A stretch of 64,000 nucleotides of DNA from Tetraselmis striata. Taxonomy: Eukaryota > Chlorophyta > Chlorodendrophyceae > Chlorodendrales > Chlorodendraceae. The notes beneath the pieces were generated by a model, which did not search any database, was not told the DNA's origin, and saw nothing but the letters and a program-made list of their open reading frames with translations. The position numbers and the translations under genes are program-made. The stretch spans positions 43,501 to 107,500 of the forward strand of contig VCJN01000175.1 in the NCBI GenBank assembly GCA_006384855.1. The letters run 5' to 3'. The stretch's first letter is position 1, and each line of letters starts with the position of its first letter. Positions 1 through 56,400 of the stretch are shown here, piece after piece.

Positions 1-3000
1 AATATATACATACGTACATGTCCTGCTCCGAAACCAGCCCACGTGTCTTTTACGCCGGGTGGATGCATGGGCATCCGGCGTCCGATGCACCCGAAGCATT
101 TGCAGCACGCTACTCTACGCACCGCCAATGCACTCCGCCAGCCCCGCCTCCATCCGCGTCGGAACCGGTAGTAAGTGTTGTTGTGTGCGCACATCATGAT
201 AACATTACACGGCGGGAATTGCAATTACCGGCGGATAATGTGAAGACATTTTCGAAATCGACGGAGAATGAGGCGGTGCTGGCGGAGTGCATTGGCGGTC
301 CATAGAATAGTGTGTTGCTGGGGTTTTGGCTGCATCGGACGCCGTATTCCCATCCATCCGGCACGGAATGTCCGGTCATCACAATTTTTTTTGTTTTACC
401 ATAGTGTGAATATTACGCATCTTTTACGTCGGGTGGATGCATGGGCATCCGGCGTCCGATGCACCCCAAGAATTTGCAGTACGCTACTTTACGCACCGCC
501 AATGCACTCCGCCAGCCCCGCCTCCATCCGCGTCGGAACCGGTAGTAAGTGTTGTTGTGTGCGCACATCATGACAACATTACACTGCGGGAATTGCAATT
601 ACCGGTGGATAATGTGAAGGCATTTTCGAAATCGACGGAGAATGAGGCGATGCTGGCGGAGTGCATTGGCGGTGCAAAGAATAGCGTGTTGTTGGGGTTT
701 TGGCTGCATCGGACGCCTTGTTCCCATCCTTCCGGCACGGAATGTCCGGTTTCACACATTTGAATATAGTGTGAATATTACGCGTCTGTTGCGCCGGGTG
801 GATGCATGGGCATCCGGCGTCCGATGCACCCCAAGAATTTGCAGCACGCTACTCTACGCACCGCCAATGCACTCCGCCAGCCCCGCCTCCATCCGCGTCG
901 GAACCGGTAGTAAGTGTTGTTGTGTGCGCACATCGTGACAACATTACACGGCGGGAATTGCAATTACCGGCGGATAATGTGAAGACATTTTCGAAATCGA
1001 CGGAGAATGAGGCGGGGCTGGCGGAGTGCATTGGCGGTGCAAAGAATAGTGTGTTGTCGGGGTTTTGGCTGCATCGGACGCCGCATTCCCATCCATCCGG
1101 CACGGAATGTCCGGTCATCACACATTTTTGTTTTACCATAGTGTGAATATTACGCATCTTTTACGTCGGGTGGATGCATGGGCATCCGGCGTCCGATGCA
1201 CCCCAAGAATTTGCAGCACGCTACTCTACGCACCGCCAATGCACTCCGCCATCCCCGTCCCCATCCGCGTCGGAACCGGTAGTAAGTGTTGTTGTGTGTG
1301 CACATCGTGACAACATTACACGGCGGGAATTGCAATTACCGGTGGATAATGTGAAGGCATTTTCGAAATCGACGGAGAATGAGGCGATGCTGGCGGAGTG
1401 CATTGGCGGTGCAAAGAGTAGCGTGTTGTTGGGGTTTTGGCTGCATCGGACGCCGTGTTCCCATCCTTCCGGCACGGAATGTCCGGTTTCACACACTTAA
1501 GTGTTAACATAGTGTGAATATTACGCGTCTTTTATGCCGGGTGGATGGGCATCCGACGTCCAATGCACCCCGAAACTCACCAACACGCTACTCTACGCAC
1601 CGCCAATGCACTCCGCCAGCCCCGCCTCCATCCGCGTCGGAACCGGTAGTAAGTGTTGTTGTGTGCGCACATCATGACAACATTACACGGCGGGAATTGC
1701 AATTACCGGCGGATAATGTGAAGGCATTTTCGAAATCGACGGAGAATGAGGCGATGCTGGCGGAGTGCATTGGCGGTGCAAAGAGTAGCGTGTTGCTGGG
1801 GTTTTGGCTGCATCGGACGCCGTGTTCCCACCCTTCCGGCACGGAATGTCCGGTTTTCACTCACTTAAGTGTTAACATAGTGTGAATATTACGCGTCTTT
1901 TATGCCGGGTGGATGTGCATGCGACGTCCAATGCACCCCGAAACTCACCAACACGCTACTCTACGCACCGCCAATGCACTTCGCCAGCCCCGCCTGTTTC
2001 TGCGCGCGTCCTACGTTGCATTGTATATATAAATATATACATACGTATATGTCCTGCTCCGAAACCAGCCCACACGTCTTTTACGCCGGGTGGATGCATG
2101 GGCATCCGGCGTCCGATGCACCCGAAGCATTTGCAGCACGCTACTCTACGCACCGCCAATGCACTCCGCCAGCCCCGCCTCCATCCGCGTCGGAACCGGT
2201 AGTAAGTGTTGTTGTGTGCGCACATCGTGACAACATTACACGGCGGGAATTGCAATTACAGGTGGATAATGTGAAGACATTTTCGAAATCGACGGAGAAT
2301 GAGGCGGTGCTGGCGGAGTGCATTGGCGGTCCATAAAATAGTGTGTTGCTGGGGTTTTGGCTGCATCGGACGCCGTATTCCCATCCATCCGGCACGGAAT
2401 GTCCGGTTTTCACACATTTGTGTGTGACCATATTGTGAATATTACGCATCTTTTACGTCGGGTGGATGCATGGGCATCCGGCGTCCGATGCACCCCAAGA
2501 ATTTGCAGCACGCTACTTTACGCACCGCCAATGCACTCCGCCAGCCCCGCCTCCATCCGCGTCGGAACCGGTAGTAAGTGTTGTTGTGTGCGCACATCAT
2601 GACAACATTACACGGCGGGAATTGCAATTACCGGTGGATAATGTGAAGGCATTTTCGAAATCGACGGAGAATGAGGCGATGCTGGCGGAGTGCATTGGCG
2701 GTGCAACGAGTAGCGTGTTGCTGGGGTTTTGGCTGCATCGGACGCCATGTTCCCATCCTTCCGGCACGGAATGTCCGGTTTCACACACTTAAGTGTTAAC
2801 ATAGTGTGAATATTACGCGTCTTTTATGCCGGGTGGATGCATGGGCATCCGACGTATGACGCACCCTGAAACTCACCAACACGCTACTCTACGCACCGCC
2901 AATGCACTCCGCCAGCCCCGCCTCCAACTGCCTCGGAACCGGTAGTAAGTGTTGTTGTGTGCGCACATCATGACAACATTACACTGCGGGAATTGCAATT

Positions 3001-4550
3001 ACCGGTGGATAATGTGAAGGCATTTTCGAAATCGACGGAGAATGAGGCGATGCTGGCGGAGTGCATTGGCGGTGCAAAGAATAGCGTGTTGTTGGGGTTT
3101 TGGCTGCATCGGACGCCTTGTTCCCATCCTTCCGGCACGGAATGTCCGGTCATCACACATTTGAATATAGTGTGAATATTACGCGTCTGTTGCGCCGGGT
3201 GGATGCATGGGCATCCGGCGTCCGATGCACCCCAAGAATTTGCAGCACGCTACTCTACGCACCGCCAATGCACTCCGCCAGCCCCGCCTCCATCCGCGTC
3301 GGAACCGGTAGTAAGTGTTGTTGTGTGCGCACATCATGACAACATTACACGGCGGGAATTGCAATTACCGGCGGATAATGTGAAGACAGTTTCGAAATCG
3401 ACGGAGAATGAGGCGGGGCTGGCGGAGTGCATTGGCGGTGCAAAGAATAGTGTGTTGTCGGGGTTTTGGCTGCATCGGACGCCGCATTCCCATCCATCCG
3501 GCACGGAATGTCCGGTCATCACACATTTTTGTTTTACCATAGTGTGAATATTACGCATCTTTTACGTCGGGTGGATGCATGGGCATCCGGCGTCCGATGC
3601 ACCCCAAGAATTTGCAGCACGCTACTCTACGCACCGCCAATGCACTCCGCCATCCCCGTCCCCATCCGCGTCGGAACCGGTAGTAAGTGTTGTTGTGTGT
3701 GCACATCGTGACAACATTACACGGCGGGAATTGCAATTACCGGTGGATAATGTGAAGGCATTTTCGAAATCGACGGAGAATGAGGCGATGCTGGCGGAGT
3801 GCATTGGCGGTGCAAAGAGTAGCGTGTTGTTGGGGTTTTGGCTGCATCGGACGCCGTGTTCCCATCCTTCCGGCACGGAATGTCCGGTTTCACACACTTA
3901 AGTGTTAACATAGTGTGAATATTACGCGTCTTTTATGCCGGGTGGATGGGCATCCGACGTCCAATGCACCCCGAAACTCACCAACACGCTACTCTACGCA
4001 CCGCCAATGCACTTCGCCAGCCCCGCCTGTTTCTGCGCGCGTCCTACGTTGCATTGTATATATAAATATATACATACGTACATGTCCTGCTCCGAAACCA
4101 GCCCACATGTCTTTTACGCCGGGTGGATGCATGGGCATCCGGCGTCCGATGCACCCGAAGCATTTGCAGCACGCTACTCTACGCACCGCCAATGCACTCC
4201 GCCAGCCCCGCCTCCATCCGCGTCGGAACCGGTAGTAAGTGTTGTTGTGTGCGCACATCATGACAACATTACACGGCGGGAATTGCAATTACCGGCGGAT
4301 AATGTGAAGACATTTTCGAAATCGACGGAGAATGAGGCGGTGCTGGCGGAGTGCATTGGCGGTCCATAGAATAGTGTGTTGCTGGGGTTTTGGCTGCATC
4401 GGACGCCGTATTCCCATCCATCCGGCACGGAATGTCCGGTCATCACAATTTTTTTTGTTTTACCATAGTGTGAATATTACGCATCTTTTACGTCGGGTGG
4501 ATGCATGGGCATCCGGCGTCCGATGCACCCCAAGAATTTGCAGCACGCTA
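1..4550. repeat. Palindromic ~368-bp satellite array, left block
   Basis: Tandem array of monomers with periods of about 365-372 bp, counted between successive GTGTGAATATT motifs (404, 769, 1141, 1512, 1880). Each monomer is a collinear imperfect palindrome. In the monomer 769-1140, positions 860-880 are the exact reverse complement of 1018-1038, and 816-828 of 1070-1082, both symmetric about position 949. Some monomers carry an extra single half-unit of about 185 bp followed by a TATA-rich segment (for example 1880-2433). That variant recurs with near-constant spacing (TCCTGCTCC at 21, 2052 and 4085), giving a higher-order period of 2,031-2,033 bp. Many short ORFs are open on both strands, but they are repeats of one another and read as satellite shadows, not genes. 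Confidence 0.95.
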
Positions 4551-5895
4551 CACCCCTCCACATAAGTCCGGGTTTTGCATTTTCGATCGCAAAGCGCATG
4601 CATGGGCGAGGATAACGCCGGCTGCATGTGCATACATGCTAACTACAGTGGGAATAGTTCGGGCGAACGCCTATTGTGCGCTTTATACCCACCCGCGCGA
4701 CAACACGACCATTTGTGGGCGCCCTTTCAAAAACGCGAAATCATTGCATGGTGCGTTGGCGCCAGAAAGTTGTGGGTTGCGCCAACCGTCCAAACCTATG
4801 GAAATAGCGGCACTCGTCGCACCAAACTCGGTGGATACGGCCCTTGGCATAAGTTGCACACACCGTGCGTGTAGGCCACTGAAAGCATGTCGCTATAGGC
4901 ACGACGTGACACCCCAACGTCAAGTTGGCCACTGTGGGGAGCAGTTTTGGGGTGAAAATGCTGCTGTTTCTGTGGCGAACGCACGTAGGAGAGGCGCTCG
5001 ATGGCCCCCTTGGCGTAGGGCAATGCTCTACTATAGGGGCGCGTGGTGGAATGCCAGTTGCACCGTTTCGTGGGCGGGGTGGCGCGGTAGGGGCGTGGAT
5101 TTTGATTAATATGAAATTCCTTGAAAAATGCTGTGGAAAATGGCATTTTGGCTGGTAGATGTGTGTATCGCTAGGAGGTGGCACATGCCAAGTGTTGGTG
5201 GTCCGTGGTCATCGACATACATAACGCTCTCGCGCAACTGAGTATGGGGCTTAGACACGCACTTGGCGCAAAGCCACGCGCCCGATATGGGTGGGCACAT
5301 GAGGCAGTGAGGGGCAACTTGGATGATCATCTTTGGGGATTTTTTCCGGAGACCCAAAAAATCGATTTTGTGATTATGGAAGAGTGCTCCCGACGCAGAA
5401 TTGAACGAGGAATGGCGTGATATTTTTAAAAAGTTTTTCTGAGCAAACCCTGAGAAGTTATAGCGTTTTGAAGCCAAGGGGGTGTTGCCGCGCGTGGCCG
5501 ACACTGATGCCATGCCAGTATCGCAACGCGACATGCACTGGCCGCCGCCCACACGGCTGCACCCCAACCAAATGCACCCGAGCCCCTCGCCAATGTGTTT
5601 CCTCACGCGTTCATGCCCATCCCGCCGTTTGGTTGCCTATGCACGCGCGTCGGCGTGTGGGTGATACCGACCCCAGTTTTGGTGCAGTTGCAGGCGACGC
5701 CCATCCACGCACCAAGTGCAGCGTGATTCCCTAGTCAAAGGTCATTAAGCTTCGGTTTGAGCCACTCGTCATGCAGGTTTTATAAAGCCCTCTGAGATTC
5801 CAGGGTTTCATCTCATATACCCTACGTTCAGGTACCCTAGACTTGTGAAGTCTTGAGACTGCCGAAAAGGGACCCCAAACTTATGTGCAGGGGTG
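4551..5895. mobile_element. TIR transposon copy 1 (non-autonomous)
   Basis: A 1,345-bp element with about 24-bp terminal inverted repeats (left ACACCCCTCCACATAAGTCC, right the inverse with a few mismatches). The TA target preference resembles Tc1/mariner-type elements, but no transposase motif was recognised in any frame. The longest internal ORFs (minus 5106-5606, 166 codons; minus 4741-5184; plus 4501-5109) overlap each other and show no recognisable domain. It is probably non-autonomous, or a family whose protein is not recognisable by eye. Confidence 0.8.
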
Positions 5896-6071
5896 TGTTG
5901 GCCATATGTCATTCGGCCATATACGGCCGACGCGGCATGTTTGAATCACCCCAATGCTCCTACTGGCTGCATATGCCCATGACGCATCCACATGCGAGCC
6001 ACGGGCTCGAAAGGGCTCACTGTCCCAAGACGCCTTATTGCGACCTCGTCGAGCGCGCTTGGTGCGGCGCA
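5896..6071. other. Linker between transposon copies 1 and 2
   Basis: A 176-bp spacer that is unrelated to the satellite and repeated at 7417-7592. It contains a small inverted motif around GGCCATATG/CATATACGGCC. It probably represents the genomic flank of the ancestral single insertion, carried along when the element was tandemly amplified. Confidence 0.7.
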
Positions 6072-7416
6072 CACCCCTCCACATAAGTCCGGGTTTTGCA
6101 TTTTCGATCGCAAAGCGCATGCATGGGCGAGGATAACGCCGGCTGCATGTGCATACATGCTAACTACAGTGGGAATAGTTCGGGCGAACGCCTATTGTGC
6201 GCTTTATACCCACCCGCGCGACAACACGACCATTTGTGGGCGCCCTTTCAAAAACGCGAAATCATTGCATGGTGCGTTGGCGCCAGAAAGTTGTGGGTTG
6301 CGCCAACCGTCCAAACCTATGGAAATAGCGGCACTCGTCGCACCAAACTCGGTGGATACGGCCCTTGGCATAAGTTGCACACACCGTGCGTGTAGGCCAC
6401 TGAAAGCATGTCGCTATAGGCACGACGTGACACCCCAACGTCAAGTTGGCCACTGTGGGGAGCAGTTTTGGGGTGAAAATGCTGCTGTTTCTGTGGCGAA
6501 CGCACGTAGGAGAGGCGCTCGATGGCCCCCTTGGCGTAGGGCAATGCTCTACTATAGGGGCGCGTGGTGGAATGCCAGTTGCACCGTTTCGTGGGCGGGG
6601 TGGCGCGGTAGGGGCGTGGATTTTGATTAATATGAAATTCCTTGAAAAATGCTGTGGAAAATGGCATTTTGGCTGGTAGATGTGTGTATCGCTAGGAGGT
6701 GGCACATGCCAAGTGTTGGTGGTCCGTGGTCATCGACATACATAACGCTCTCGCGCAACTGAGTATGGGGCTTAGACACGCACTTGGCGCAAAGCCACGC
6801 GCCCGATATGGGTGGGCACATGAGGCAGTGAGGGGCAACTTGGATGATCATCTTTGGGGATTTTTTCCGGAGACCCAAAAAATCGATTTTGTGATTATGG
6901 AAGAGTGCTCCCGACGCAGAATTGAACGAGGAATGGCGTGATATTTTTAAAAAGTTTTTCTGAGCAAACCCTGAGAAGTTATAGCGTTTTGAAGCCAAGG
7001 GGGTGTTGCCGCGCGTGGCCGACACTGATGCCATGCCAGTATCGCAACGCGACATGCACTGGCCGCCGCCCACACGGCTGCACCCCAACCAAATGCACCC
7101 GAGCCCCTCGCCAATGTGTTTCCTCACGCGTTCATGCCCATCCCGCCGTTTGGTTGCCTATGCACGCGCGTCGGCGTGTGGGTGATACCGACCCCAGTTT
7201 TGGTGCAGTCGCAGGCGACGCCCATCCACGCACCAAGTGCAGCGTGATTCCCTAGTCAAAGGTCATTAAGCTTCGGTTTGAGCCACTCGTCATGCAGGTT
7301 TTATAAAGCCCTCTGAGATTCCAGGGTTTCATCTCATATACCCTACGTTCAGGTACCCTAGACTTGTGAAGTCTTGAGACTGCCGAAAAGGGACCCCAAA
7401 CTTATGTGCAGGGGTG
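6072..7416. mobile_element. TIR transposon copy 2
   Basis: Essentially identical to copy 1 at an offset of 1,521 bp. The one difference noticed is GCAGTTG in copy 1 at about 5688 against GCAGTCG at about 7209. Both ends abut linkers, not TA. Confidence 0.85.
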
Positions 7417-7592
7417 TGTTGGCCATATGTCATTCGGCCATATACGGCCGACGCGGCATGTTTGAATCACCCCAATGCTCCTACTGGCTGCATATGCCCA
7501 TGACGCATCCACATGCGAGCCACGGGCTCGAAAGGGCTCACTGTCCCAAGACGCCTTATTGCGACCTCGTCGAGCGCGCTTGGTGCGGCGCA
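7417..7592. other. Linker between transposon copies 2 and 3
   Basis: Second copy of the 176-bp linker at 5896-6071. Confidence 0.7.
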
Positions 7593-8937
7593 CACCCCTC
7601 CACATAAGTCCGGGTTTTGCATTTTCGATCGCAAAGCGCATGCATGGGCGAGGATAACGCCGGCTGCATGTGCATACATGCTAACTACAGTGGGAATAGT
7701 TCGGGCGAACGCCTATTGTGCGCTTTATACCCACCCGCGCGACAACACGACCATTTGTGGGCGCCCTTTCAAAAACGCGAAATCATTGCATGGTGCGTTG
7801 GCGCCAGAAAGTTGTGGGTTGCGCCAACCGTCCAAACCTATGGAAATAGCGGCACTCGTCGCACCAAACTCGGTGGATACGGCCCTTGGCATAAGTTGCA
7901 CACACCGTGCGTGTAGGCCACTGAAAGCATGTCGCTATAGGCACGACGTGACACCCCAACGTCAAGTTGGCCACTGTGGGGAGCAGTTTTGGGGTGAAAA
8001 TGCTGCTGTTTCTGTGGCGAACGCACGTAGGAGAGGCGCTCGATGGCCCCCTTGGCGTAGGGCAATGCTCTACTATAGGGGCGCGTGGTGGAATGCCAGT
8101 TGCACCGTTTCGTGGGCGGGGTGGCGCGGTAGGGGCGTGGATTTTGATTAATATGAAATTCCTTGAAAAATGCTGTGGAAAATGGCATTTTGGCTGGTAG
8201 ATGTGTGTATCGCTAGGAGGTGGCACATGCCAAGTGTTGGTGGTCCGTGGTCATCGACATACATAACGCTCTCGCGCAACTGAGTATGGGGCTTAGACAC
8301 GCACTTGGCGCAAAGCCACGCGCCCGATATGGGTGGGCACATGAGGCAGTGAGGGGCAACTTGGATGATCATCTTTGGGGATTTTTTCCGGAGACCCAAA
8401 AAATCGATTTTGTGATTATGGAAGAGTGCTCCCGACGCAGAATTGAACGAGAAATGGCGTGATATTTTTAAAACGTTTTTCTGAGCAAACCCTGAGAAGT
8501 TATAGCGTTTTGAAGCCAAGGGGGTGTTGCCGCGCGTGGCCGACACTGATGCCATGCCAGTATCGCAACGCGACATGCACTGGCCGCCGCCCACACGGCT
8601 GCACCCCAACCAAATGCACCCGAGCCCCTCGCCAATGTGTTTCCTCACGCGTTCATGCCCATCCCGCCGTTTGGTTGCCTATGCACGCGCGTCGGCGTGT
8701 GGGTGATACCGACCCCAGTTTTGGTGCAGTTGCAGGCGACGCCCATCCACGCACCAAGTGCAGCGTGATTCCCTAGTCAAAGGTCATTAAGCTTCGGTTT
8801 GAGCCACTCGTCATGCAGGTTTTATAAAGCCCTCTGAGATTCCAGGGTTTCATCTCATATACCCTACGTTCAGGTACCCTAGACTTGTGAAGTCTTGAGA
8901 CTGCCGAAAAGGGACCCCAAACTTATGTGCAGGGGTG
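7593..8937. mobile_element. TIR transposon copy 3
   Basis: Third copy, differing by isolated substitutions near 8450-8475. Its right terminus is followed by TA and then resumes the interrupted satellite monomer. Confidence 0.85.
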
Positions 8938-8939
8938 TA

Positions 8940-11900
8940 CTTTACGCACCGCCAATGCACTCCGCCAGCCCCGCCTCCATCCGCGTCGGAACCGGTAGTA
9001 AGTGTTGTTGTGTGCGCACATCATGACAACATTACACTGCGGGAATTGCAATTACCGGTGGATAATGTGAAGGCATTTTCGAAATCGACGGAGAATGAGG
9101 CGATGCTGGCGGAGTGCATTGGCGGTGCAAAGAATAGCGTGTTGTTGGGGTTTTGGCTGCATCGGACGCCTTGTTCCCATCCTTCCGGCACGGAATGTCC
9201 GGTTTCACACATTTGAATATAGTGTGAATATTACGCGTCTGTTGCGCCGGGTGGATGCATGGGCATCCGGCGTCCGATGCACCCCAAGAATTTGCAGCAC
9301 GCTACTCTACGCACCGCCAATGCACTCCGCCAGCCCCGCCTCCATCCGCGTCGGAACCGGTAGTAAGTGTTGTTGTGTGCGCACATCGTGACAACATTAC
9401 ACGGCGGGAATTGCAATTACCGACGGATAATGTGAAGACATTTTCGAAATCGACGGAGAATGAGGCGGGGCTGGCGGAGTGCATTGGCGGTGCAAAGAAT
9501 AGTGTGTTGTCGGGGTTTTGGCTGCATCGGACGCCGCATTCCCATCCATCCGGCACGGAATGTCCGGTCATCACACATTTTTGTTTTACCATAGTGTGAA
9601 TATTACGCATCTTTTACGTCGGGTGGATGCATGGGCATCCGGCGTCCGATGCACCCCAAGAATTTGCAGCACGCTACTCTACGCACCGCCAATGCACTCC
9701 GCCATCCCCGTCCCCATCCGCGTCGGAACCGGTAGTAAGTGTTGTTGTGTGTGCACATCGTGACAACATTACACGGCGGGAATTGCAATTACCGGTGGAT
9801 AATGTGAAGGCATTTTCGAAATCGACGGAGAATGAGGCGATGCTGGCGGAGTGCATTGGCGGTGCAAAGAGTAGCGTGTTGTTGGGGTTTTGGCTGCATC
9901 GGACGCCGTGTTCCCATCCTTCCGGCACGGAATGTCCGGTTTCACACACTTAAGTGTTAACATAGTGTGAATATTACGCGTCTTTTATGCCGGGTGGATG
10001 GGCATCCGACGTCCAATGCACCCCGAAACTCACCAACACGCTACTCTACGCACCGCCAATGCACTCCGCCAGCCCCGCCTGTTTCTGCGCGCGTCCTACG
10101 TTGCATTGTATATATAAATATATACATACGTACATGTCCTGCTCCGAAACCAGCCCACATGTCTTTTACGCCGGGTGGATGCATGGGCATCCGGCGTCCG
10201 ATGCACCCCAAGAATTTGCAGCACGCTACTCTACGCACCGCCAATGCACTCCGCCATCCCCGTCCCCATCCGCGTCGGAACCGGTAGTAAGTGTTGTTGT
10301 GTGTGCACATCGTGACAACATTACACGGCGGGAATTGCAATTACCGGTGGATAATGTAAAGGCATTTTCGAAATCGACGGAGAATGAGGCGATGCTGGCG
10401 GAGTGCATTGGCGGTGCAAAGAGTAGCGTGTTGTTGGGGTTTTGGCTGCATCGGACGCTGCATCCTTCCGGCACGGAATGTCCGGTTTCACACACTTAAG
10501 TGTTAACATAGTGTGAATATTACGCGTCTTTTATGCCGGGTGGATGGGCATCCGACGTCCAATGCACCCCGAAACTCACCAACACGCTACTCTACGCACC
10601 GCCAATGCACTTCGCCAGCCCCGCCTGTTTCTGCGCGCGTCCTACGTTGCATTGTATATATAAATATATACATACGTACATGTCCTGCTCCGAAACCAGC
10701 CCACATGTCTTTTACGCCGGGTGGATGCATGGGCATCCGGCGTCCGATGCACCCGAAGCATTTGCAGCACGCTACTCTACGCACCGCCAATGCACTCCGC
10801 CAGCCCCGCCTCCATCCGCGTCGGAACCGGTAGTAAGTGTTGTTGTGTGCGCACATCATGACAACATTACACGGCGGGAATTGCAATTACCGGCGGATAA
10901 TGTGAAGACATTTTCGAAATCGACGGAGAATGAGGCGGTGCTGGCGGAGTGCATTGGCGGTCCATAGAATAGTGTGTTGCTGGGGTTTTGGCTGCATCGG
11001 ACGCCGTATTTCCATCCATCCGGCACGGAATGTCCGGTCATCACAAATTTTTTTGTTTTACCATAGTGTGAATATTACGCATCTTTTACGTCGGGTGGAT
11101 GCATGGGCATCCGGCGTCCGATGCACCCCAAGAATTTGCAGCACGCTACTCTACGCACCACCAATGCACTCCGCCAGCCCCGCCTCCATCCGCGTCGGAA
11201 CCGGTAGTAAGTGTTGTTGTGTGCGCACATCATGACAACATTACACTGCGGGAATTGCAATTACCGGTGGATAATGTGAAGGCATTTTCGAAATCGACGG
11301 AGAATGAGGCGATGCTGGCGGAGTGCATTGGCGGTGCAAAGAGTAGCGTGTTGTTGGGGTTTTGGCTGCATCGGACGCCTTGTTCCCATCCTTCCGGCAC
11401 GGAATGTCCGGTTTCACACATTTGAATATAGTGTGAATATTACGCGTCTGTTGCGCCGGGTGGATGGGCATCCGGCGTCCGATGCACCCCAAGAATTTGC
11501 AGCACGCTACTCTACGCACCGCCAATGCACTCCGCCATCCCCGTCCCCATCCGCGTCTGAACCGGTAGTAAGTGTTGTTGTGTGCGCACATCGTGACAAC
11601 ATTACACGGCGGGAATTGCAATTACCGGTGGATAATATGAAGGCATTTTCGAAATCGACGGAGAATGAGGCAATGCTGGCGGAGTGCATTGGCGGTGCAA
11701 AGAGTAGCGTGTTGTTGGGGTTTTGGCTGCATCGGACGCCGTGTTCCCATCCTTCCGGCACGGAATGTCCGGTTTCACACACTTAAGTGTGAACATAGTG
11801 TGAATATTACGCGTCTTTTATGCCGGGTGGATGGGCATCCGACGTCCAATGCACCCCGAAACTCACCAACACGCTACTCTACGCACCGCCAATGCACTTC

Positions 11901-14900
11901 GCCAGCCCCGCCTGTTTCTGCGCGCGTCCTACGTTGCATTGTATATATAAATATATACATACGTACATGTCCTGCTCCGAAACCAGCCCACATGTCTTTT
12001 ACGCCGGGTGGATGCATGGGCATCCGGCGTCCGATGCACCCGAAGCATTTGCAGCACGCTACTCTACGCACCGCCAATGCACTCCGCCAGCCCCGCCTCC
12101 ATCCGCGTCGGAACCGGTAGTAAGTGTTGTTGTGTGCGCACATCATGACAACATTACACGGCGGGAATTGCAATTACCGGCGGATAATGTGAAGACAGTT
12201 TCGCAATCGACGGAGAATGAGGCGGGGCTGGCGGAGTGCATTGGCGGTGCATAGAATAGTGTGTTGTCGGGGTTTTGGCTGCATCGGACGCCGCATTCCC
12301 ATCCATCCGGCACGGAATGTCCGGTCATCACACATTTTTGTTTTACCATAGTGTGAATATTACGCGTCTTTTACGTCGGGTGGATGCATGGGCATCCGGC
12401 GTCCGATGCACCCCAAGAATTTGCAGCACGCTACTTTACGCACCGCCAATGCACTCCGCCAGCCCCGCCTCCATCCGCGTCGGAACCGGTAGTAAGTGTT
12501 GTTGTGTGCGCACATCGTGACAACATTGCACGGCGGGAATTGCAATAATTTCCGGTGGATAATGTGAAGGCATTTTCGAAATCGACGGAGAATGAGGCGA
12601 TGCTGGCGGAGTGCATTGGCGGTGCAAAGAGTAGCGTGTTGCTGGGGTTTTGGCTGCATCGGGCGCCGTATTCCCATCCTTCCGGCACGGAATGTCCGGT
12701 TTTCACACATTTTTGTGTGTGAATATAGTGTAAATATTACGCGTCCTTGTACGCCGGGTGGATGCCTGTGCATCCGGCGTATGACGCACCCCGAAACTCA
12801 CCAACACGCTACTCTACGCACCGCCAATGCACTTCGCCAGCCCCGCCTGTTTCCGCGCACGTCCTACGTTGCATTGTTTATATAAATATATACATACGTA
12901 CATGAACTACATCGAAACCAGCCCACATGTCTTTTACGCCGGGTCGATGCATGGGCATCCGGCGTCCGATGCACCCCAAGAATTTGCAGCACGCTAGTCT
13001 ATGCACCGCCAATGCACTCCGCCAGCCCCGCCTCCATCCGCGTCGGAATCGGTAGTAAGTGTTGTTGTGCGCGCACATCGTGACAACATTACACGGCGGG
13101 AATTGCAATTACCGGCGGATAATGTGAAGACATTTTCGAAATCGACGGAGAATGAGGCGGTGCTGGCGGAGTGCATTGGCGGTGCATAGAATAGTGTGTT
13201 GCTGGGGTTTTGGCTGCATCGGACGCCGTATTCCCATCCGTCCGGCACGGAATGTCCGGTTTTCACACATTTTTGTTTCACCATAGTGTAAATATTGCGC
13301 GTCTTTTACGCCGGGCGGATGCATGGGCATCCGGCGTTCGATGCACCCCAAGAATTTGCAGCACGCTACTCTACGCACCGCCAATGCACTCCGCCAGCCC
13401 CGCCTCCATCCGCGTCGGAACCGGTAGTAAGTGTTGTTGTGTGCGCACATCATGACAACATTACACGGCGGGAATTGCAATTACCGGCGGATAATGTGAA
13501 GGCATTTTCGAAATCGACGGAGAATGAGGCGGTGCTGGCGGAGTGCGTTGGCGGTGCATAGAATAGTGTGTTGCTGGGGTTTTGGCTGCATCGGACGCCG
13601 TATTCCCATCCATCCGGCACGGAATGTCCGGTTTTCACACATTTGTGTGTGACCATAGTGTGAATACTACGCATCTTTTACGTCGGGTGGATACATGGGC
13701 ATCCGGCGTCCGATGCACCCCAATTATTTGCAGCACGCTACTTTACGCACCGCCAATGCACTCCGCCAGCCCCGCCTCCATCCGCGTCGGAACCGGTAGT
13801 AAGTGTTGTTGTGTGCGCACATCGTGACAACATTGCACGGCGGGAATTGCAATAAATTCCGGTGATTAATGTGAAGGCATTTTCGAAATCGACGGAGAAT
13901 GAGGCGATGCTGGCGGAGTGCATTGGCGGTGCAAAGAGTAGCGTGTTGCTGGGGTTTTGGCTGCATCGGACGCCGTGTTCCCACCCTTCCGGCACGGAAT
14001 GTCCGGTTTTCACTCACTTAAGTGTTACATAGTGTGAATATTACGCGTCTTTTATGCCGGGTGGATGTGCATGCGACGTCCAATGCACCCCGAAACTCAC
14101 CAACACGCTACTCTACGCACCGCCAATGCACTTCGCCAGCCCCGCCTGTTTCTGCGCGCGTCCTACGTTGCAGTGTATATATAAATATATACATACGTAT
14201 ATGTCCTGCTCCGAAACCAGCCCACATGTCTTTTACGCCGGGTGGATGCATGGGCATCCGGCGTCCGATGCACCCGAAGCATTTGCAGCACGCTAGTCTA
14301 CGCACCGCCAATGCACTCCGCCAGCCCCGCCTCCATCCGCGTCGGAACCGGTAGTAAGTGTTGTTGTGTGCGCACATCGTGACAACATTACACGGCGGGA
14401 ATTGCAATTACCGGTGGATAATGTGAAGACATTTTCGAAATCGACGGAGAATGAGGCGGTGCTGGCGGAGTGCATTGGCGGTCCATAGAATAGTGTGTTG
14501 CTGGGGTTTTGGCTGCATCGGACGCCGTATTCCCATCCATCCGGCACGGAATGTCCGGTTTTCACACATTTGTGTGTGACCATAGTGTGAATATTACGCA
14601 TCTTTTACGTCGGGTGGATGCATGGGCATCCGGCGTCCGATGCACCCCAAGAATTTGCAGCACGCTACTTTACGCACCGCCAATGCACTCCGCCAGCCCC
14701 GCCTCCATCCGCGTCGGAACCGGTAGTAAGTGTTGTTGTGTGCGCACATCATGACAACATTACACGGCGGGAATTGCAATTACCGGTGGATAATGTGAAG
14801 GCATTTTCGAAATCGACGGAGAATGAGGCGATGCTGGCGGAGTGCATTGGCGGTGCAAAGAATAGCGTGTTGCTGGGGTTTTGGCTGCATCGGACGCCAT

Positions 14901-15024
14901 GTTCCCATCCTTCCGGCACGGAATGTCCGGTTTCACACACTTAAGTGTTAACATAGTGTGAATATTACGCGTCTTTTATGCCGGGTGGATGCATGGGCAT
15001 CCGACGTATGACGCACCCCGAAAC
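8940..15024. repeat. Palindromic ~368-bp satellite array, right block
   Basis: Continuation of the same satellite. The first bases complete the monomer cut at 4550, and both halves match the second monomer of the left block, which carries the diagnostic ACACTGCGGG. The half-unit plus TATA-segment variant recurs at about 10,137, 10,683, 11,970, 12,903 (diverged) and 14,204. Spacing is irregular, so the 2.03-kb higher-order period breaks down here. Monomers near 12,500-13,900 are the most diverged, for example with TAA insertions in the central AATTGCAATT motif. No gene is supported. Confidence 0.93.
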
Positions 15025-23169: not shown

Positions 23170-23330
23170 GGTTTTAGGGTTTAGGATTTAGGGTTTGAGT
23201 TTTTAGGATTTTGGGGTTTAGGTTTTGGGGTTTAGGGGGATTTAGGGTTTTGGATTTTAGGGTTAGGGGCTTTGGGTTTTCCGGGTTTTTAGGTTTGTAT
23301 GGTTTAGTATGGGTTGTATGGTTTTTCTTG
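23170..23330 (+). repeat. Degenerate interstitial telomere-like repeat
   Basis: About 160 bp of TTTAGGG, TTTAGGA, TTTTGGGG and TTTTAGG variants on the plus strand, all in one orientation. It resembles a degraded tract of the plant/green-algal telomere family. Confidence 0.8.
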
Positions 23331-35077: not shown

Positions 35078-35164
35078 TAAGGCTCCGCATCAAGAATCAA
35101 TAAAAGATCGAATCGTGGTGCACCAGACACAGATCGTGAATCGCACCAAGAATCATTACTTAGG

Positions 35165-35480
35165 CGCGGAATTTACTGGTGCGCCGATATTTACGTGGTA
35201 GACTTACTGGTGCACCGATATTTAGGTGCCGGAATTTACTGGTGCACCGATATTTATTGGGCTGTAATATTCGGTGCACCGATATTTAGCTGGCGGAATT
35301 TACTGGTGCACCGATATTAAGGTACCGGTATTTACTGGTGCACCGATGTTTCGGTGCCAGAATTTACCGGTGCACCGATACTTCGGTGCCGACATTTACT
35401 GATGCACCAACATTTAACCGCATATTATACCGATGCACCAATATTTATCTGCGTAATTGAATCAAAGACTGGTGCACCAA
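35165..35480. repeat. 5' subterminal GGTGCACC array of hAT copy 1
   Basis: About ten units at 30-36-bp spacing of TTTACTGGTGCACCGATATT with drift. The core GGTGCACC is itself palindromic. In Ac-like hAT elements, clustered subterminal motifs bind the transposase. That role is inferred here. Confidence 0.88.
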
Positions 35481-35958
35481 GAATCAACCGAGAATCAGCC
35501 ACAGTGGGAGACATGTGTCATCGACGGCTTCGGTCGTGACGATGCGTGGTAACCACGATCTGACGGCCACTGTTGGACAATTGCGTGATCATTGCTCCCC
35601 AATTGCATCGACGCCTCGACGGCAATGAAATGACCATAGAGATTATCGGACGGTACAGATTTAAACTTCGGTGGATCAACCCCTCACGATCCCATATGGT
35701 AGACCGCAACGCGGTTGTTGGGCGCGGTCAGGGTGCTGGAAGGGTTTCCCCCGGTGAGATCAATCGGCTGGATCCAGGTGAGGGCGCGGGCGCGGAGGAT
35801 ATACACCCCTGGAGGGATTATTCGCCGTGCTTCACCGCGTTTATTCGGCCGCGATTTCCCAATACTTTGTGCAGTACTCGTCAGCAATAGTGGCGCGTCA
35901 AGCAGCCGCGCGCCGGTAGCAGTTTTAATACCGTACGCCCGTGTCACTAGTTCAAACG

Positions 35959-38900
35959 ATGGCCAGGAAGCGCGGGCGCCCGCAGATTGCACTTCCTCCC
36001 GCGAAGGCTCCCACCTTGGACCCCGAAGGCGCCCCAGATGGACCCAAGCGCACTCCCATCAGCTTCGCGGATGCATACAACGGGCGCGAGGCGTACAAGG
36101 TCGAGAAGATCCTTGCGCAAGTAACGCGCAAGGGTGTGGAGCACTACATCGTGCGATGGGAGGGACTATGCGACAAGGCGGATACCACGGAGCCTGCTTC
36201 TCACATGGAGGACGACGAGAGCCTGGCAAAGATCGACGAGTTCCTCGAGGCTAGGCGTACCCTGGGCGTCGGGCGCCCCAGTGCCAAGCGCCCTAACACT
36301 GTGTCTGGTCCGGGATCCTCAAGCATTCGCAGCCTCCCACAGGATGGCCTTACCAGGACAGACACGAGGCGACCAACGCCCGGAAGGTGCTACTCGTCGG
36401 CGATGAAAATCCGGAGAATCCCGAACCCGCTCCTGGTGAGATCCCCCGCGCTGAACCCCTTTACGGCCCCGCCCCCTGCCCTTTCTACCTTTGTAGCTAA
36501 ATTTGCTGATCCGCTCGCCATGTGCAGCGCCTGTTGCGGCGGCCAATCGTCGCGCGACAGTGCCGCCCCGCAAGTCCATCGTCTGGAACTACTTCAACAA
36601 GAAGTTCCGCGGAGAGGACGGCTACCTCTACAGCACATGCAGTCTCTGCCGCACCACCATGGCGTTTTGCAACACCACGAACCTGATCAACCACCTCATC
36701 CGCAAGCATTCCGACGACCTAGTCGACGATGCGATGGGCGGCAAGGTGCGCCGCTGACACCCTCCCCCGCGGCGCACCCTTATGGAAAAAATAGTATTCG
36801 ACTTTCTTGCCGATCCCTCGCCGCCGTTGTCCGTATGCCGACAGATCGCACTTAAGGCCATCTTCAAGAAGGACGCGGGGGGTTTCAACAAGCCTGCCCC
36901 TGTCGCCGAAGCTGTCAAGCTCACCAAGCTTCCCGATGACGTGAAGCGCGACTACGACGCAGCTGATGTGAAGTGGATCATCAAGAGCTGCATGCCTCAC
37001 AGCATCACGGAGCGCGACCAGTATCTGCGGGAGTTCCTAAAGGTACAAGCCCATTCTCGCTTCCTATGCCTTTCCGTTGCCCAACCCCCTTCCATGTATT
37101 TACTAACGTTAATGCTATTTTTCCACAGAGTTGCTTACACATGGACGATACTCCGGGCACATGGCATCCACGGTTAACAAGATGATCCTGGAGATGTCGG
37201 TGGAGAACATTCTCCAGCTAAAGGTTGGTAGCCTCCCTCCATGTCCCCCTTTCCTCCATCTACCCCTTGTGCCTCATCTGAACCAAGGGCACACCGTTCA
37301 TGCCCACTCACTATATCTGCCTTCACATCATGCAGGAGGAGATTGAAGACCTACAGAAGGAGCGCTTGTCAGTCTCCCTAGCTGCGGACATCTGGGGGAG
37401 AAACGGCATCTCCATCTTGGCCATCATGGCCTACTGGATAACACCTGACTTCGAGCTTAAGGAGAAGCTGCTCCTTGCCAAGCCATTCAGTCAGGTAACC
37501 TCAGTTGCATCTATTCCCTATTACCTTTGTTGCTGCTACTATAAGATAGCCCCGCAAAGTATGCTGAACAGTGACGACGCGTGCCGGCTAGGGCTGTAGC
37601 CAGGATGCGCTAACTGTCCGGCTACCTTATTGTATCCCCGCAGAGTGCCGCCCAGGGCCGTAGGTAGAATGCGATAATTGTCCAGCTACCTGAATGTATC
37701 CCCGCAGAGTGCCACCCATGCCAGTAGGTAGGGTGCGCTATCTGTCCAGCTACCTTAACATATCCCCGCAGATGAGTGCCGCCCACGGCCATAGGTATGA
37801 TGCGGTATCTGTCCAGCTATAAACCTGAATACATGGCCGAAGGTAGGGTGGACCTGTTATAATATCAATAGCGGGGCTCAATTTAATACTGTATTGTTGC
37901 AGGTGGAGCACAACGGCAAACAGATTGCTGCTGCCGCCAAGGTCGCACTTGCTGGAATGGGGATTGGCAAGTACTCCGAGGCCACCGACACACAAGTAGC
38001 TGTTGACACTGTTGGGGATGAGGCTTTTGGAATTTGCATCGATGAAGGCAGCAACATGGTCAAGGCTTTTGAGGACTTTGAAGGTGGTTCATGTGTGGAT
38101 CATCGCCTGAGCAACGGTTTGAAGGATGCGTTGAAGCCGCCTGTAGTCGCTGACATTGTGAGAAAGGTGAAGTTGTTCCCTGATGTTGATGTTTTTTCAT
38201 TGCCCATTTATGCCACACTGCGTTGTGCAGCTGACTAACGGGATGATACTCTGCTGCCCTCATAGGTGAAGGGCATCTCTGCCCACTTTAACCGCTCTTC
38301 AAAGGGGTGGAGGAAGCTGGAGGAGGTTGCAGCGCAGCAGCGTGTCAAGGTGACGAAGCCACCGCGGTGCTCGGAGTGCCGCTGGGGAGGCATCATCCTG
38401 CTGTTCCAATGGTTGGGTGGCACACAAGACCTTTTGAGGAGGTACAACGGGAATGCTCCAGCGATTGTGCCAAGAATGACGATGGGACTACCTTCCAGGA
38501 TCATCTCATGACAGATGCGGAGATGGTGTTGGCTCAACAGCTGGTAACCCCCCCCCATGTTGCCATATTACCTTGTTGCCCATCCAAGTGTTTATTGCAT
38601 GCAATTTTGCTAGTGGATCCTCCCTTAATAGCAGCTGACCGTCAAATGATTACCATTGTAGGGAATTACCTATGGCCCGGTGGCGCAAATGCTGACCATG
38701 ATGGAGGCCACCAGCGTGCCTATCTTCAGCTGTGTGTTGCCTATGTTTGGATCCTTGCATGCTGCCATAGATGAGGATGCCACTGCTGTGGCCCTCATCG
38801 ACGGCGAGGTGCTTCATCTAAAGGTAGGTGTGGTCTACGAGCTGGTTATTGAATGAGAAGCTACATCACCATATGCTTTCATATAAATTGGCTTAGCTTT

Positions 38901-46712: not shown

Positions 46713-48096
46713 CACCTTTCCACATAAGTCCGGGTTTTGCATTTTCGATCGCAAATCGCATACATGGGCAAGGATATAACGCCGTGCATGTGCATTCATG
46801 CTAACTATAGTGGGAATAGTTCGGGCAAACGCCTATTGTGCGCTTTATACCCACCCGCGCGACAACACGACCATTTGTGGGCGCCCTTTAAAGAACGCGA
46901 AATCAGTGCATGATGCGTTGGCGCTAGGAAATTGTCGGTTGCGCCAACCGTCCAAACCTATGGAAATAGCGGCACTCGTCGCACCGAACTCGGTGAATAC
47001 GGCCCGTGGCATGGCGCACACAGTGCGTGTAGGCCACTGAAAGCGTGTCGCTATAGGCACGACGTGACATACACCCTAACGACAAGTTGGCCACTGTGGC
47101 GAGCAGTTTTGGGGTAATAAAAATGCTGATGTTTCTGTGGCGAGCGCACGTAGGAGAGGCGCTCGATGCCCCCCTTGGCGTAGGGCAATGCTCTACTATG
47201 GGGGCACGTGGTGGAATGCCAGTTGCACCGTTTCGTGGGCGGGGTGGCGCGGTAGGGGCGTGGACTTGAATTAATATCAAGTTCCTATTTTAAGATGGCA
47301 TTTTGGCTGGTAGATGTGTGTATCGCTAGGAGGCGGCACATGCCAAGTGTTGGTGGTCCGTGGCCATCCACACACATAACGCTCTAGCGCAACCGAGTAT
47401 GGGGCTAATACACGCACTTGGCGCAAAGCCACGCGCCCGACATGGGTGGACACATGAGGCAGTGAGGGGCAACTTGGATGATCATCATTGGGGATTTTTC
47501 CGCCCCCCCCCCCCCCCCCCCGCCCCCCCCCCCCGCCCCCCCCCCCCCCCCCAAAAAATCGTTTTTTTTATTTTGGAAGATTGCTTTCGACGCAAATTTG
47601 AACGAGAAATTGCGTGGTACTTTCAAAAAGTTTTTCTGAGCAAACCCTGAGAAGTTATAGCGTTTTAAACCCAAGGGGGTGTTGATGAACGTGGCCAACA
47701 TTGATGCCATGTCAGTATTGCAACGCGACATGTACTAGCCGCCGCCCACACGGCTGCACCCCAACCAAATGCACCCGAGCCCCTCGCCAATGTGTTTCCT
47801 CACGCGTTCATGGCCATCCCGCCGTTTGGTTGTCTATTCACGCGCGTCGGCGTGTGCGTGATACCGGCCCTGGTTTTGGTGCAGTTATATTGCAGGCGAC
47901 GCCCATCCACGCACCAAATTTAGCGTGATACCCTAGTCAAAGGTCTTTATGCTTCGGTTTGAGCCACTCGTCATGCAGGTCTTATAAACCCTCTGAGATT
48001 CTAGGGCTTCATCTCATATACTCTACGTTCAGGTGCCCTAGACTTCTGAAGTCTTGAGACTGCCGAAAAGGGACCCCAAACTTATGTGGAGGGGTG
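46713..48096. mobile_element. TA/TIR transposon copy 4 (solitary)
   Basis: A 1,384-bp relative of the elements at 4.5-8.9 kb, diverged by scattered substitutions. Left end CACCTTTCCACATAAGTCCG, right end CTTATGTGGAGGGGTG, with TA on each side (46,711-46,712 and 48,097-48,098). This independently confirms the TA duplication. A C-rich expansion (47,503-47,552, C runs broken by single G) replaces the GGAGAC segment of the other copies. No transposase was recognised. Confidence 0.9.
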
Positions 48097-53478: not shown

Positions 53479-56400
53479 TAAGGCTCCGCATCAAGAATCA
53501 ATAAAAGATCGAATCGTGGTGCACCAGACACAGATCGTGAATCGCACCAAGAATCATTACTTAGGCGCGGAATTTACTGGTGCACCGATATTTACGTGGT
53601 AGACTTACTGGTGCACCGATATTTAGGTGCCGGAATTTACTGGTGCACCGATATTTATTGGGCTGTAATATTCGGTGCACCGATATTTAGCTGGCGGAAT
53701 TTACTGGTGCACCGATATTAAGGTACCGGTATTTACTGGTGCACCGATGTTTCGGTGCCAGAATTTACCGGTGCACCGATACTTCGGTGCCGACATTTAC
53801 TGATGCACCAACATTTAACCGCATATTATACCGATGCACCAATATTTATCTGCGTAATTGAATCAAAGACTGGTGCACCAAGAATCGACCGAGAATCAGC
53901 CACAGTGGGAGACATGTGTCATCGACGGCTTCGGTCGTGACGATGCGTGGTAACCACGATCTGACGGCCACTGTTGGACAATTGCGTGATCATTGCTCCC
54001 CAATTGAATCGACGCCTCGACGGCAATGAAATGACCATAGAGATTATCGGACGGTACAGATTTAAACTTCGGTGGATCAACCCCTCACGATCCCATATGG
54101 TAGACCGCAACGCGGTTGTTGGGCGCGGTCAGGGTGCTGGAAGGGTTTCCCCGGGTGAGATCAATCGGCTGGATCCAGGTGAGGGCGCGGGCGCGGAGGA
54201 TATACACCCCTGGAGGGATTATTCGCCGTGCTTCACCGCGTTTATTCGGCCGCGATTTCCCAATACTTTGTGCAGTACTCGTCAGCAATAGTGGCGCGTC
54301 AAGCAGCCGCGCGCCGGTAGCAGTTTTAATACCGTACGCCCGTGTCACTAGTTCAAACGATGGCCAGGAAGCGCGGGCGCCCGCAGATTGCACTTCCTCC
54401 CGCGAAGGCTCCCACCTTGGACCCCGAAGGCGCCCCAGATGGACCCAAGCGCACTCCCATCAGCTTCGCGGATGCATACAACGGGCGCGAGGCGTACAAG
54501 GTCGAGAAGATCCTTGCGCAAGTAACGCGCAAGGGTGTGGAGCACTACATCGTGCGATGGGAGGGACTATGCGACAAGGCGGATACCACGGAGCCTGCTT
54601 CTCACATGGAGGACGACGAGAGCCTGGCAAAGATCGACGAGTTCCTCGAGGCTAGGCGTACCCTGGGCGTCGGGCGCCCCAGTGCCAAGCGCCCTAACAC
54701 TGTGTCTGGTCCGGGATCCTCAAGCATTCGCAGCCTCCCACAGGATGGCCTTACCAGGACAGACACGAGGCGACCAACGCCCGGAAGGTGCTACTCGTCG
54801 GCGATGAAAATCCGGAGAATCCCGAACCCGCTCCTGGTGAGATCCCCCGCGCTGAACCCCTTTACGGCCCCGCCCCCTGCCCTTTCTACCTTTGTAGCTA
54901 AATTTGCTGATCCGCTCGCCATGTGCAGCGCCTGTTGCGGCGGCCAATCGTCGCGCGACAGTGCCGCCCCGCAAGTCCATCGTCTGGAACTACTTCAGCA
55001 AGAAGTTCCGCGGAGAGGACGGCTACCTCTACAGCACATGCAGTCTCTGCCGCACCACCATGGCGTTTTGCAACACCACGAACCTGATCAACCACCTCAT
55101 CCGCAAGCATTCCGACGACCTAGTCGACGATGCGATGGGCGGCAAGGTGCGCCGCTGACACCCTCCCCCGGCGGCGCACCCTTATGGAAAAATTGTATTC
55201 GACTTTCTTGCCGATCCCTCGCCGCCGTTGTCCGTGTGCCCACAGATCGCACTTAGGCCCATCTTCAAGAAGGACGCGGGGGGTTTCAACAAGCCTGCCC
55301 CTGTCGCCGAAGCTGTCAAGCTCACCAAGCTTACCGATGACGTGAAGCGCGACTACGACGCAGCTGCTGTGAAGTGGATCATCAAGAGCTGCATACCTCA
55401 CAGCATCACGGAGCTTAGCCAGTATCTGCGGGAGTTCCTAAAGGTACAAGCCCATTCTCGCTTCCTATGCCTTTCCGTTGCCCAACCCCCTTCCATGTAT
55501 TTACTAACGTTAATGCTATTTTTCCACACAGTTGCTTACACATGGACGATACTCCGGGCCCATGGCATCGACGGTTAACAAGATGATCCTGGAGATGTCG
55601 GTGGAGAACATTCTCCAGCTAAAGGTTGGTAGCCTCCCTCCATGTCCCCCTTTCCTCCATCTACCCCTTGTGCCTCATCTGAACCAAGGGCACACCGTTC
55701 ATGCCCACTCACTTTATCTGCCTTCACATCCTGCAGGAGGAGATTGAAGACCTACAGAAGGAGCGCTTGTCAGTCTCCCTAGCTGCGGACATCTGGGGAG
55801 AAAACGGCATCTCCATCTCCATCATGGCCTACTGGATAACACCTGACTTCGAGCTTAAGGAGAAGCTGCTCCTTGCCAAGCCATTCAGTCAGGTTACCTC
55901 AGTTGCATCTATTCCCTATTACCTTTGTTGCTGCTACTATAAGATAGCCCCGCATAGTATGCTGACCAGTGACGACGCGTGCCGGCTAGGGCTGTAGCCA
56001 GGATGCGCTAACTGTCCGGCTACCTTATTGTATTCCCGCAGAGTGCCTCCCAGGGCCGTAGGTAGGATGCGATAACTGTCCAGCTCCCTGAGTGTATCCC
56101 CGCAAAGTGCCACCCATGTCAGTAGGTAGGGTGCGCTATCTGTCCAGCTACCTTAACATATCCCCGCAGATGAGTGCCGCCCATGGCCATAGGTATGATG
56201 CGGTATCTGTCCAGCTATAAACCTGAATACATGGCCGAAGGTAGAGTGGACCTGTTATGATATCAATAGCGGGGCTTAATTTAATACTATATTGTTGCAG
56301 GTGGAGCACAACGGCAAACAGATTGCTGCTGCCGCCAAGGTCGCACTTGCTGGAATGGGGATTGGCAAGTACTCCGAGGCCACCGACACACAAGTAGTGG

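Follow-up and report, generated by a model that had tools for sequence, protein, structure and literature searches.

We analysed a 64,000-nucleotide stretch of the genome of the green alga Tetraselmis striata (assembly GCA_006384855.1, contig VCJN01000175.1), hereafter called the window, which contains at positions 4551-8937 an array of a repeated module (M) and a linker (L). We consider it likely that this array stems from a composite DNA transposon of the Tc1/mariner type and represents a non-autonomous copy of it, while the probable autonomous form would carry its transposase in the linker. Such an element would be built from head-to-tail copies of the non-coding M, each bounded by short inverted ends and separated from the next by a linker. 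The transposase would engage the outermost pair of ends, the left one of the first M and the right one of the last, and thereby mobilise the whole [M-L]n-M and insert it at a TA. At the inner ends the dinucleotides CA and TG are found instead of TA, which probably weakens cutting there without abolishing it, and the copy number would change afterwards by recombination between the repeats.

Array structure and insertion site

The array reads M-L-M-L-M, head to tail, and TA is present only at its outermost ends (Table 1). M is bounded by inverted repeats of 17 bp, the left one being CACCCCTCCACATAAGT and the right one, read inward, CACCCCTGCACATAAGT, with 16 of 17 positions identical. M begins with CA and ends with TG, L begins with TG and ends with CA; inside the array TG adjoins the right ends of M and CA precedes the inner left ends. 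Across the three M copies three sites differ in total, and both linkers are identical. Since the M copies can be distinguished, the array is not one copy that the assembler repeated three times. Long near-identical repeats are hard to assemble, and the arrays on contigs C58 and C1768 lie at a contig end and that on C304 within about 1 kb of one, but given the distinguishable copies of the window and the same TA-bounded form in 15 complete arrays with different flanks, we regard a false repetition of a single M or of M-L-M as very improbable.

The original prediction, made from the letters of the window, had described three tandem transposons with identical 176-bp linkers, TG/CA at the junctions and TA at the outermost ends only, and its structure and coordinates were reproduced exactly. 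The three copies stand, while the term transposon needs a qualifier, since no gene was recognised among the open frames of M, M itself not having been scanned against Pfam. The longest open frames across M measure 202-212 amino acids and enter from the flank or the linker, and M is best called a non-autonomous module.

The array interrupts a satellite with a 372-bp repeat. Fusing the two flanks, with the array and one TA removed, gave an empty-site query of 201 bp. Over 168-201 bp it matches 24 further places in the window, at 89.2-99.5% identity and without an array between. These array-free satellite places bear out the earlier claim that removal of the array and one TA restores an intact monomer. 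A TA target duplication was found in 15 of 15 complete arrays, in all six fetched solo copies of M and at the empty site of the window.

Table 1 Features of the window that belong to the M-L family or to its insertion site
Feature	Position	Strand	Remarks
TA target duplication, left	4549..4550		from flank reading and empty-site comparison
M copy 1	4551..5895	+	1,345 bp, no gene recognised; 17-bp inverted ends
L copy 1	5896..6071	+	176 bp, TG...CA
M copy 2	6072..7416	+	differs from copy 1 at unit position 1139
L copy 2	7417..7592	+	identical to L copy 1
M copy 3	7593..8937	+	differs from copy 1 at unit positions 860 and 882
TA target duplication, right	8938..8939		from flank reading and empty-site comparison
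372-bp satellite region	41..15019		several blocks; host of the array insertion and source of the empty-site copies
Old solo M	46713..48096	+	87.4% identical to array M; TA on both sides; without linker

Modules, linkers and arrays in the genome

The census covers the single 224-Mb assembly that contains the window, no relatives being compared, and its counts derive from exact matches unless mismatches are stated. With up to two mismatches, the left-end 22-mer of M occurs at 1,787 places and the right-end 23-mer at 1,350. The exact left-end 19-mer was found at 983 places, preceded by TA at 461, by CA at 503 and by other flanks at 19, and no exact right end of M was found in direct order at a distance of up to 30 bp from a left end. 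For the counting of units, 95 of the 461 TA left ends were paired with 100 of the 503 CA left ends on contigs C5-C553; five TA places beyond C553 were left out, because the CA list stops in C553. The resulting units per locus are lower bounds, since only exact ends count and coverage stops within C553: one left end was found at 71 loci, two at 11, three at seven, four at four, and five and seven at one each, so that 24 of the 95 TA left ends start arrays of 2-7 or more units. The array on C553 opens at a TA and extends for at least 9 kb. The prediction had asked for single or tandem copies with the same linker, and both many arrays, all of those read sharing L, and solo copies of M do exist.

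In 53 of the 100 CA ends used, no exact TA end lies upstream. These ends fall on eight contigs, chiefly C83 (24), C404 (14), C269 (6) and C324 (5), where the runs look like long satellites of the M-L unit. C83 holds at least 24 exact CA-flanked left ends across 39 kb without an exact TA-flanked one and thus qualifies as satellite DNA in the sense of long tandem arrays, whereas the short dispersed arrays are unlike a classical satellite.

Twenty arrays were read wholly or partly, as were six solo copies in addition to them, the latter with both flanks. The sample is not random: eight arrays were found with a query of TA-M-L plus the start of the next M, and twelve were chosen from the end lists for having at least two units. 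A second stretch of C1768 (L032) was left out of the flank counts. The left outer flank is TA in all 20 arrays, and the 15 that are readable to both ends (C136, C2529, C2011, C1779, C917, C174, C142, C291, C217, C40, C177, C407, C429, C470 and C197) all have the form [M-L]n-M between TAs. The others are incomplete, as C58 and C1768 reach the contig end, C304 and C553 exceed the fetched stretch and C385 stops in a fragment of M. Within the 20 arrays CA precedes 49 of 49 inner left ends and TG follows 49 of 49 inner right ends, and one linker L is common to every array read. TA flanks each of the six solo copies on either side, and their identity with the M of the window is 94.4-99.6%.

Two other origins of linker and element were considered and set aside. 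L as a free genomic sequence was hardly encountered: exact L starts without a preceding G occur at only two places (C269 and C1800, contigs that also contain direct linker-linker joins) and exact L ends without a following C at only five, all on C2111, in a search that would miss a diverged L or a free L that by chance has both a G before it and a C behind it. A stretch of C159 (92700-100900, L046) with ends 7.8 kb apart had been a candidate autonomous element and is an M split by about 6.5 kb of other sequence, which contains repetitive frames rich in alanine, arginine and proline; these frames were not searched. On C2111 (59957-64447) the five exact L ends are followed by the base T and not by M, three of them at a spacing of 179 bp, and a scar may begin with T there. 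The TG...CA ends of L also recall a long terminal repeat, which is only noted here, as no search for retroviral features was made in L.

Origin and copy number of the arrays

The M copies group by locus. A tree of 73 copies from 26 loci requires 28 changes of locus label, the minimum being 25, compared to a mean of 61.4 in shuffled labels, none of 200 shuffles being as low. In 12 of 17 non-mosaic arrays at least one substitution is present in all full copies and absent from the other loci read, and linker variants are locus-specific in step with the M variants, which together indicate that most arrays derive from one M-L unit type. The three identical M copies of C142 lie seven changes from the nearest other locus, and the two copies of C40, four changes apart, lie 58 from it. 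Array-specific variants lie at M position 35 in C58 and, in C429, 5 bp short of the right terminus of M; the latter is carried by each of the three copies of C429 and by none of the other loci read. In the window, a variant at M position 837 is carried by all three copies and, judged by its exact 34-mer, is found at no other place in the genome.

Mosaic structure is seen in three arrays. C174 starts with an old type and continues with the window type from within copy 2, C1779 has copy 1 of the window type and copies 2 and 3 of another, and C304, which was not read to its end, changes from the window type to another within copy 2. Of the 15 arrays that are complete, C174 and C1779 therefore differ in lineage between their two outer ends, as is explained by insertion of a ready-made array and not by growth from one resident M, unless gene conversion proceeded nearly to the end. 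Together with the array-specific variants, these unlike ends favour the insertion of ready-made arrays over growth from a single M.

A further possibility is that a solo M resident at the TA recombined with a circle of one M and one L, as in the circle model for KolobokP transposons. When exact ends are counted, 71 of 95 loci show a solo M, so that targets would be common. This model predicts that one outermost stretch is resident and the other derived from the circle, but the private variant of the window and the variant of C429 close to the right end of M are present in all three copies of their arrays, and the ends of C174 and C1779 are of different lineages. Later gene conversion could blur each of these counterpoints, and even so we judge this route improbable.

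A weightier alternative, to which we nevertheless give somewhat less than even credence, is that M-L-M inserted and then grew in situ to three copies by unequal crossing-over between the M repeats. This would leave the outer TAs unchanged and result in the same outer structure, and in agreement with it the copy number ranges from 1 to 7 or more, with C553 continuing for at least 9 kb from its TA. Among the three-copy non-mosaic arrays seven private variants occur in two of three copies, and six of the seven, in a post hoc and small sample, place the odd copy where unequal crossing-over predicts: first at left-hand sites (C291 at 257, C429 at 41) and last at right-hand sites (C217 at 1351, C197 at 1079, C2529 at 1023, C470 at 810). 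However, C385 at 1233 and the near-private C217 at 866 and C470 at 794 do not fit this geometry, C917, C142 and C58 show no difference between copies, and nothing in the window array itself requires crossing-over. In-situ growth is compatible with the composite element that we favour and differs from it solely in the copy number at insertion.

The site C470 at 810 sits within a cluster of changes in M columns about 794-810 (L057), mostly confined to copy 2, such as conversion or templated repair might leave. A source array that was itself polymorphic and passed on variants tied to position was looked for as well, without a clear finding.

A rolling-circle or tandem extrachromosomal molecule might have come first, with the transposase then inserting a piece of three units. 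The copies within an array are near-identical and mostly locus-specific, and the private variant of the window has no other home in the assembly, both of which would suit such a source. Direct evidence of circles was not obtained, and long assembled M-L arrays could serve as sources instead, none of them with the private variant of the window; we thus consider this origin unlikely, and the tandem circle named by the original prediction receives no direct support. Its broader claim, that amplification preceded insertion and that the outer inverted repeats mobilised the array, survives in part. The shared L, the scarcity of exact L ends that lack the adjoining base of M (two and five places), the 15 of 15 TA-bounded arrays, the variant at position 837 in all copies and the ends of C174 and C1779 indicate that at least M-L-M moved as a unit, by way of its outer ends. 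The window array may have inserted with three copies rather than two.

Candidate transposase, probable excision scars and related elements

A candidate transposase came from a search of the genome with the profile of DDE_3, which we take to be the transposase domain of the Tc1/mariner/IS630 group. At least 97 matches were obtained, with 150 of 177 candidates scored. One group scores 30-35 bits (cut-off 28.6), mostly in open frames of 437 amino acids, and recurs at a spacing of 2,673-2,692 bp on nine contigs (C40, C211, C704, C1257, C1383, C1650, C1788, C2096 and C2247), with eight tandem matches on C211, eleven on C1257 and one step of 5,373 bp on C1788. A shorter spacing, 1,335-1,336 bp, is seen on C164 and in one instance on C704. 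Among the matches listed, C221, C554, C2040 and C2880 have one each of this group. Between two DDE_3 copies of C211 a stretch of 1,081 bp (L059) aligns in order with M positions 26-1056, with 623 identities, 355 mismatches and 107 gap positions, and reaches a score of 117 compared to at most 18.5 in 100 shuffles. Four unread bases further on, the next 46 bases (L060) run ...GCGCAGTCCA and then CACCCCTCCACATAAGTTTGG, and include the same 17-bp left end as M, CACCCCTCCACATAAGT, preceded by CA (...GTCCA).

We propose that the unit of about 2,680 bp consists of a diverged M (M') and a linker T of about 1.33 kb, which would have room for the frame of 437 amino acids, and that the spacing of 1,335 bp would be T plus a 3-bp scar, in parallel to 179 bp as L plus three. 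The whole transposase frame would then lie in the linker of this probable autonomous relative, in the place that L occupies in the family of the window, and its product would act on the ends of M. L as a shortened T was also considered; the comparison, limited to the last 25 bases of T, gave no likeness (371 of 500 shuffles were as good). A further group of at least 19 stronger DDE_3 matches (81-101 bits) in unbroken frames on C554, C613, C665, C2385, C2441 and C2605 is either a different transposase family or belongs to bacterial contigs in the assembly.

Activity at the inner ends is suggested by direct linker-linker joins, of which 123 were found by exact ends. In the 100 joins listed, the bases between the two linkers are CAG in 82, CTG in 15, CATG in two and CAGG in one; these 100 joins are not 100 events, as some were re-amplified with their array. 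On C83 (19005-39137) spacings of 1,700 and 2,058 bp alternate (two and four linkers, respectively), with some of 1,521 and 1,857 bp, and the scars there seem to have arisen first and to have been amplified later as a higher-order repeat. Since M ends in CA and TG, two-base overhangs that are fully filled would result in CATG, and a one-base mismatched overlap in CAG or CTG. By this reasoning 99 of the 100 listed joins would match footprints of cut-and-paste excision of M. Tc1/mariner elements are cleaved two to three nucleotides inside the end (PMC2170065), and the footprint of Sleeping Beauty is CAG (PMC8151067). The joins may therefore record the excision, from longer arrays, of one M or of a run of units from the left end of one M to the right end of another. 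Read in this way, they imply that inner ends beside CA/TG can be cut, and it is for these scars that we assume weakened and not abolished cutting. Whether cutting is blocked by the lack of a flanking TA is settled neither by PMC7827188 nor by PMC2642840.

Several points weigh against a composite element that moves as a ready-made array. At 71 of the 95 TA loci M stands alone by exact ends, which means that M also moves alone or that arrays shrink. Five of the 17 non-mosaic arrays (C1768, C2529, C2011, C553 and C407) have no variant of their own, where for C1768 the second stretch, counted as another locus, may mask specific variants. No other array of the assembly has the private variant of the window, and thus no surviving source array was found. 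The copy number probably changes after insertion too, as far as the variant patterns indicate, and inner M units seem to be excised at times, so that the CA/TG flanks are no full block. The transposase is known from its match to the hidden Markov model (30-35 bits over a cut-off of 28.6) and from spacing. Its placement in T follows from lengths and is put here as probable, M' having been read as far as the counterpart of M position 1056 and, of the transposase arrays, a stretch between two copies on C211. The last 25 bases of T do not resemble L.

On balance we lean, by a small degree, towards an obligate composite of the Tc1/mariner type, in which no single pair of ends encloses the transposase gene, so that it spreads only if at least two modules move jointly. 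The loss of the inner TAs to TG/CA would favour movement of the whole array, and the same units would grow satellites that shed modules and arrays.

In architecture the M-L family comes closest to KolobokP, a group of composite-like DNA transposons from animals (Kojima and Bao 2022, PMC9587614). KolobokP elements have long direct repeats (LTDR) with own short inverted ends around a transposase-bearing internal region (INT), and also occur as solo repeats, (LTDR-INT)n-LTDR multimers, abutted internal regions and non-autonomous families (PMC9587614). The LTDR-INT-LTDR form with multimers, solo repeats and abutted INTs is found in the non-autonomous M-L family as well, whereas the KolobokP termini 5'-RR...YY-3' are not, M having CA...TG. 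The M-L family also differs by its TA target and by its DDE_3 match, the INT of KolobokP being characterised by a Kolobok transposase and a His-Me nuclease, by a direct repeat of 1,345 bp compared to about 450 or 660 bp in KolobokP, by a linker of 176 bp, or about 1.33 kb for T, unlike that of KolobokP, and by CAG, CTG or CATG added between abutted linkers, where small deletions are described for KolobokP (PMC9587614). For the multimers the KolobokP authors propose unequal crossing-over or recombination with circles (PMC9587614). The mosaics and private variants of the M-L arrays suggest that, beyond these models, whole arrays move too. While its architecture is that of KolobokP, the M-L family appears to sit best with Tc1/mariner by target, scars and transposase match.

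With the Tc1/mariner/IS630 group it has the TA target in common, and its joins of the CAG type may correspond to the footprint of Sleeping Beauty (PMC8151067). In an ordinary member the transposase lies within one pair of inverted ends, whereas in the M-L family it apparently lies between two modules. The Sleeping Beauty sandwich vector (PMC4229213) resembles the arrays in having complete elements on both sides, there with disabled inner ends, so that only the outermost ends are cut; the vector is engineered, head to head and altered in the terminal CA, whereas the M-L arrays are natural, head to tail and have the flanking TA replaced by TG/CA. By analogy, the CA/TG flanks may act like the disabled inner ends of the vector.

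Ac of maize belongs to the hAT family. In its macrotransposons, too, two adjacent elements can use their ends jointly, so that all the DNA in between is mobilised and a footprint stays behind (PMC9910405). They have an 8-bp target duplication and arise by rearrangement at individual loci (PMC9910405), whereas M-L is a dispersed family with a fixed linker. Coral CMITE arrays likewise consist of tandem full-length miniature inverted-repeat transposable elements (MITEs) with similar intervening sequences. They have piggyBac as their relative, replication slippage is the origin that their authors prefer, and movement of whole arrays is, as far as consulted, not reported (PMC2872659). MITEs are short and non-coding, with terminal inverted repeats, and are moved in trans. 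M has inverted ends as well and may be moved in trans, and no gene was recognised in it, without a Pfam scan of M, but its 1,345 bp exceed the MITE range of 80-500 bp (PMC2642840). In the literature searched we found no TA-inserting composite transposon with a transposase in the linker, which is no proof of absence.

Elsewhere in the window, a similar set of tandem repeats occurs twice, about 18.4 kb apart (35160-37819 and 53561-56217). Frames of 308 amino acids at 35929-36852 and 54330-55253 share their first 60 residues, with a chromodomain match in the first, the only copy scanned. An open frame at 59202-61892 has reverse transcriptase and RNase H matches as well as a Dam methyltransferase match below the cut-off, and degenerate TTTAGGG-like repeats lie at 23173-23279.

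Composite architecture in eukaryotic DNA transposons has been described for KolobokP, and a second, apparently independent case that inserts at TA would make this design a recurrent one. The M-L system connects cut-and-paste transposition with the origin and spread of satellite arrays, and its many natural insertions and candidate excision scars are available for studying what decides whether a transposase uses inner or outer ends.

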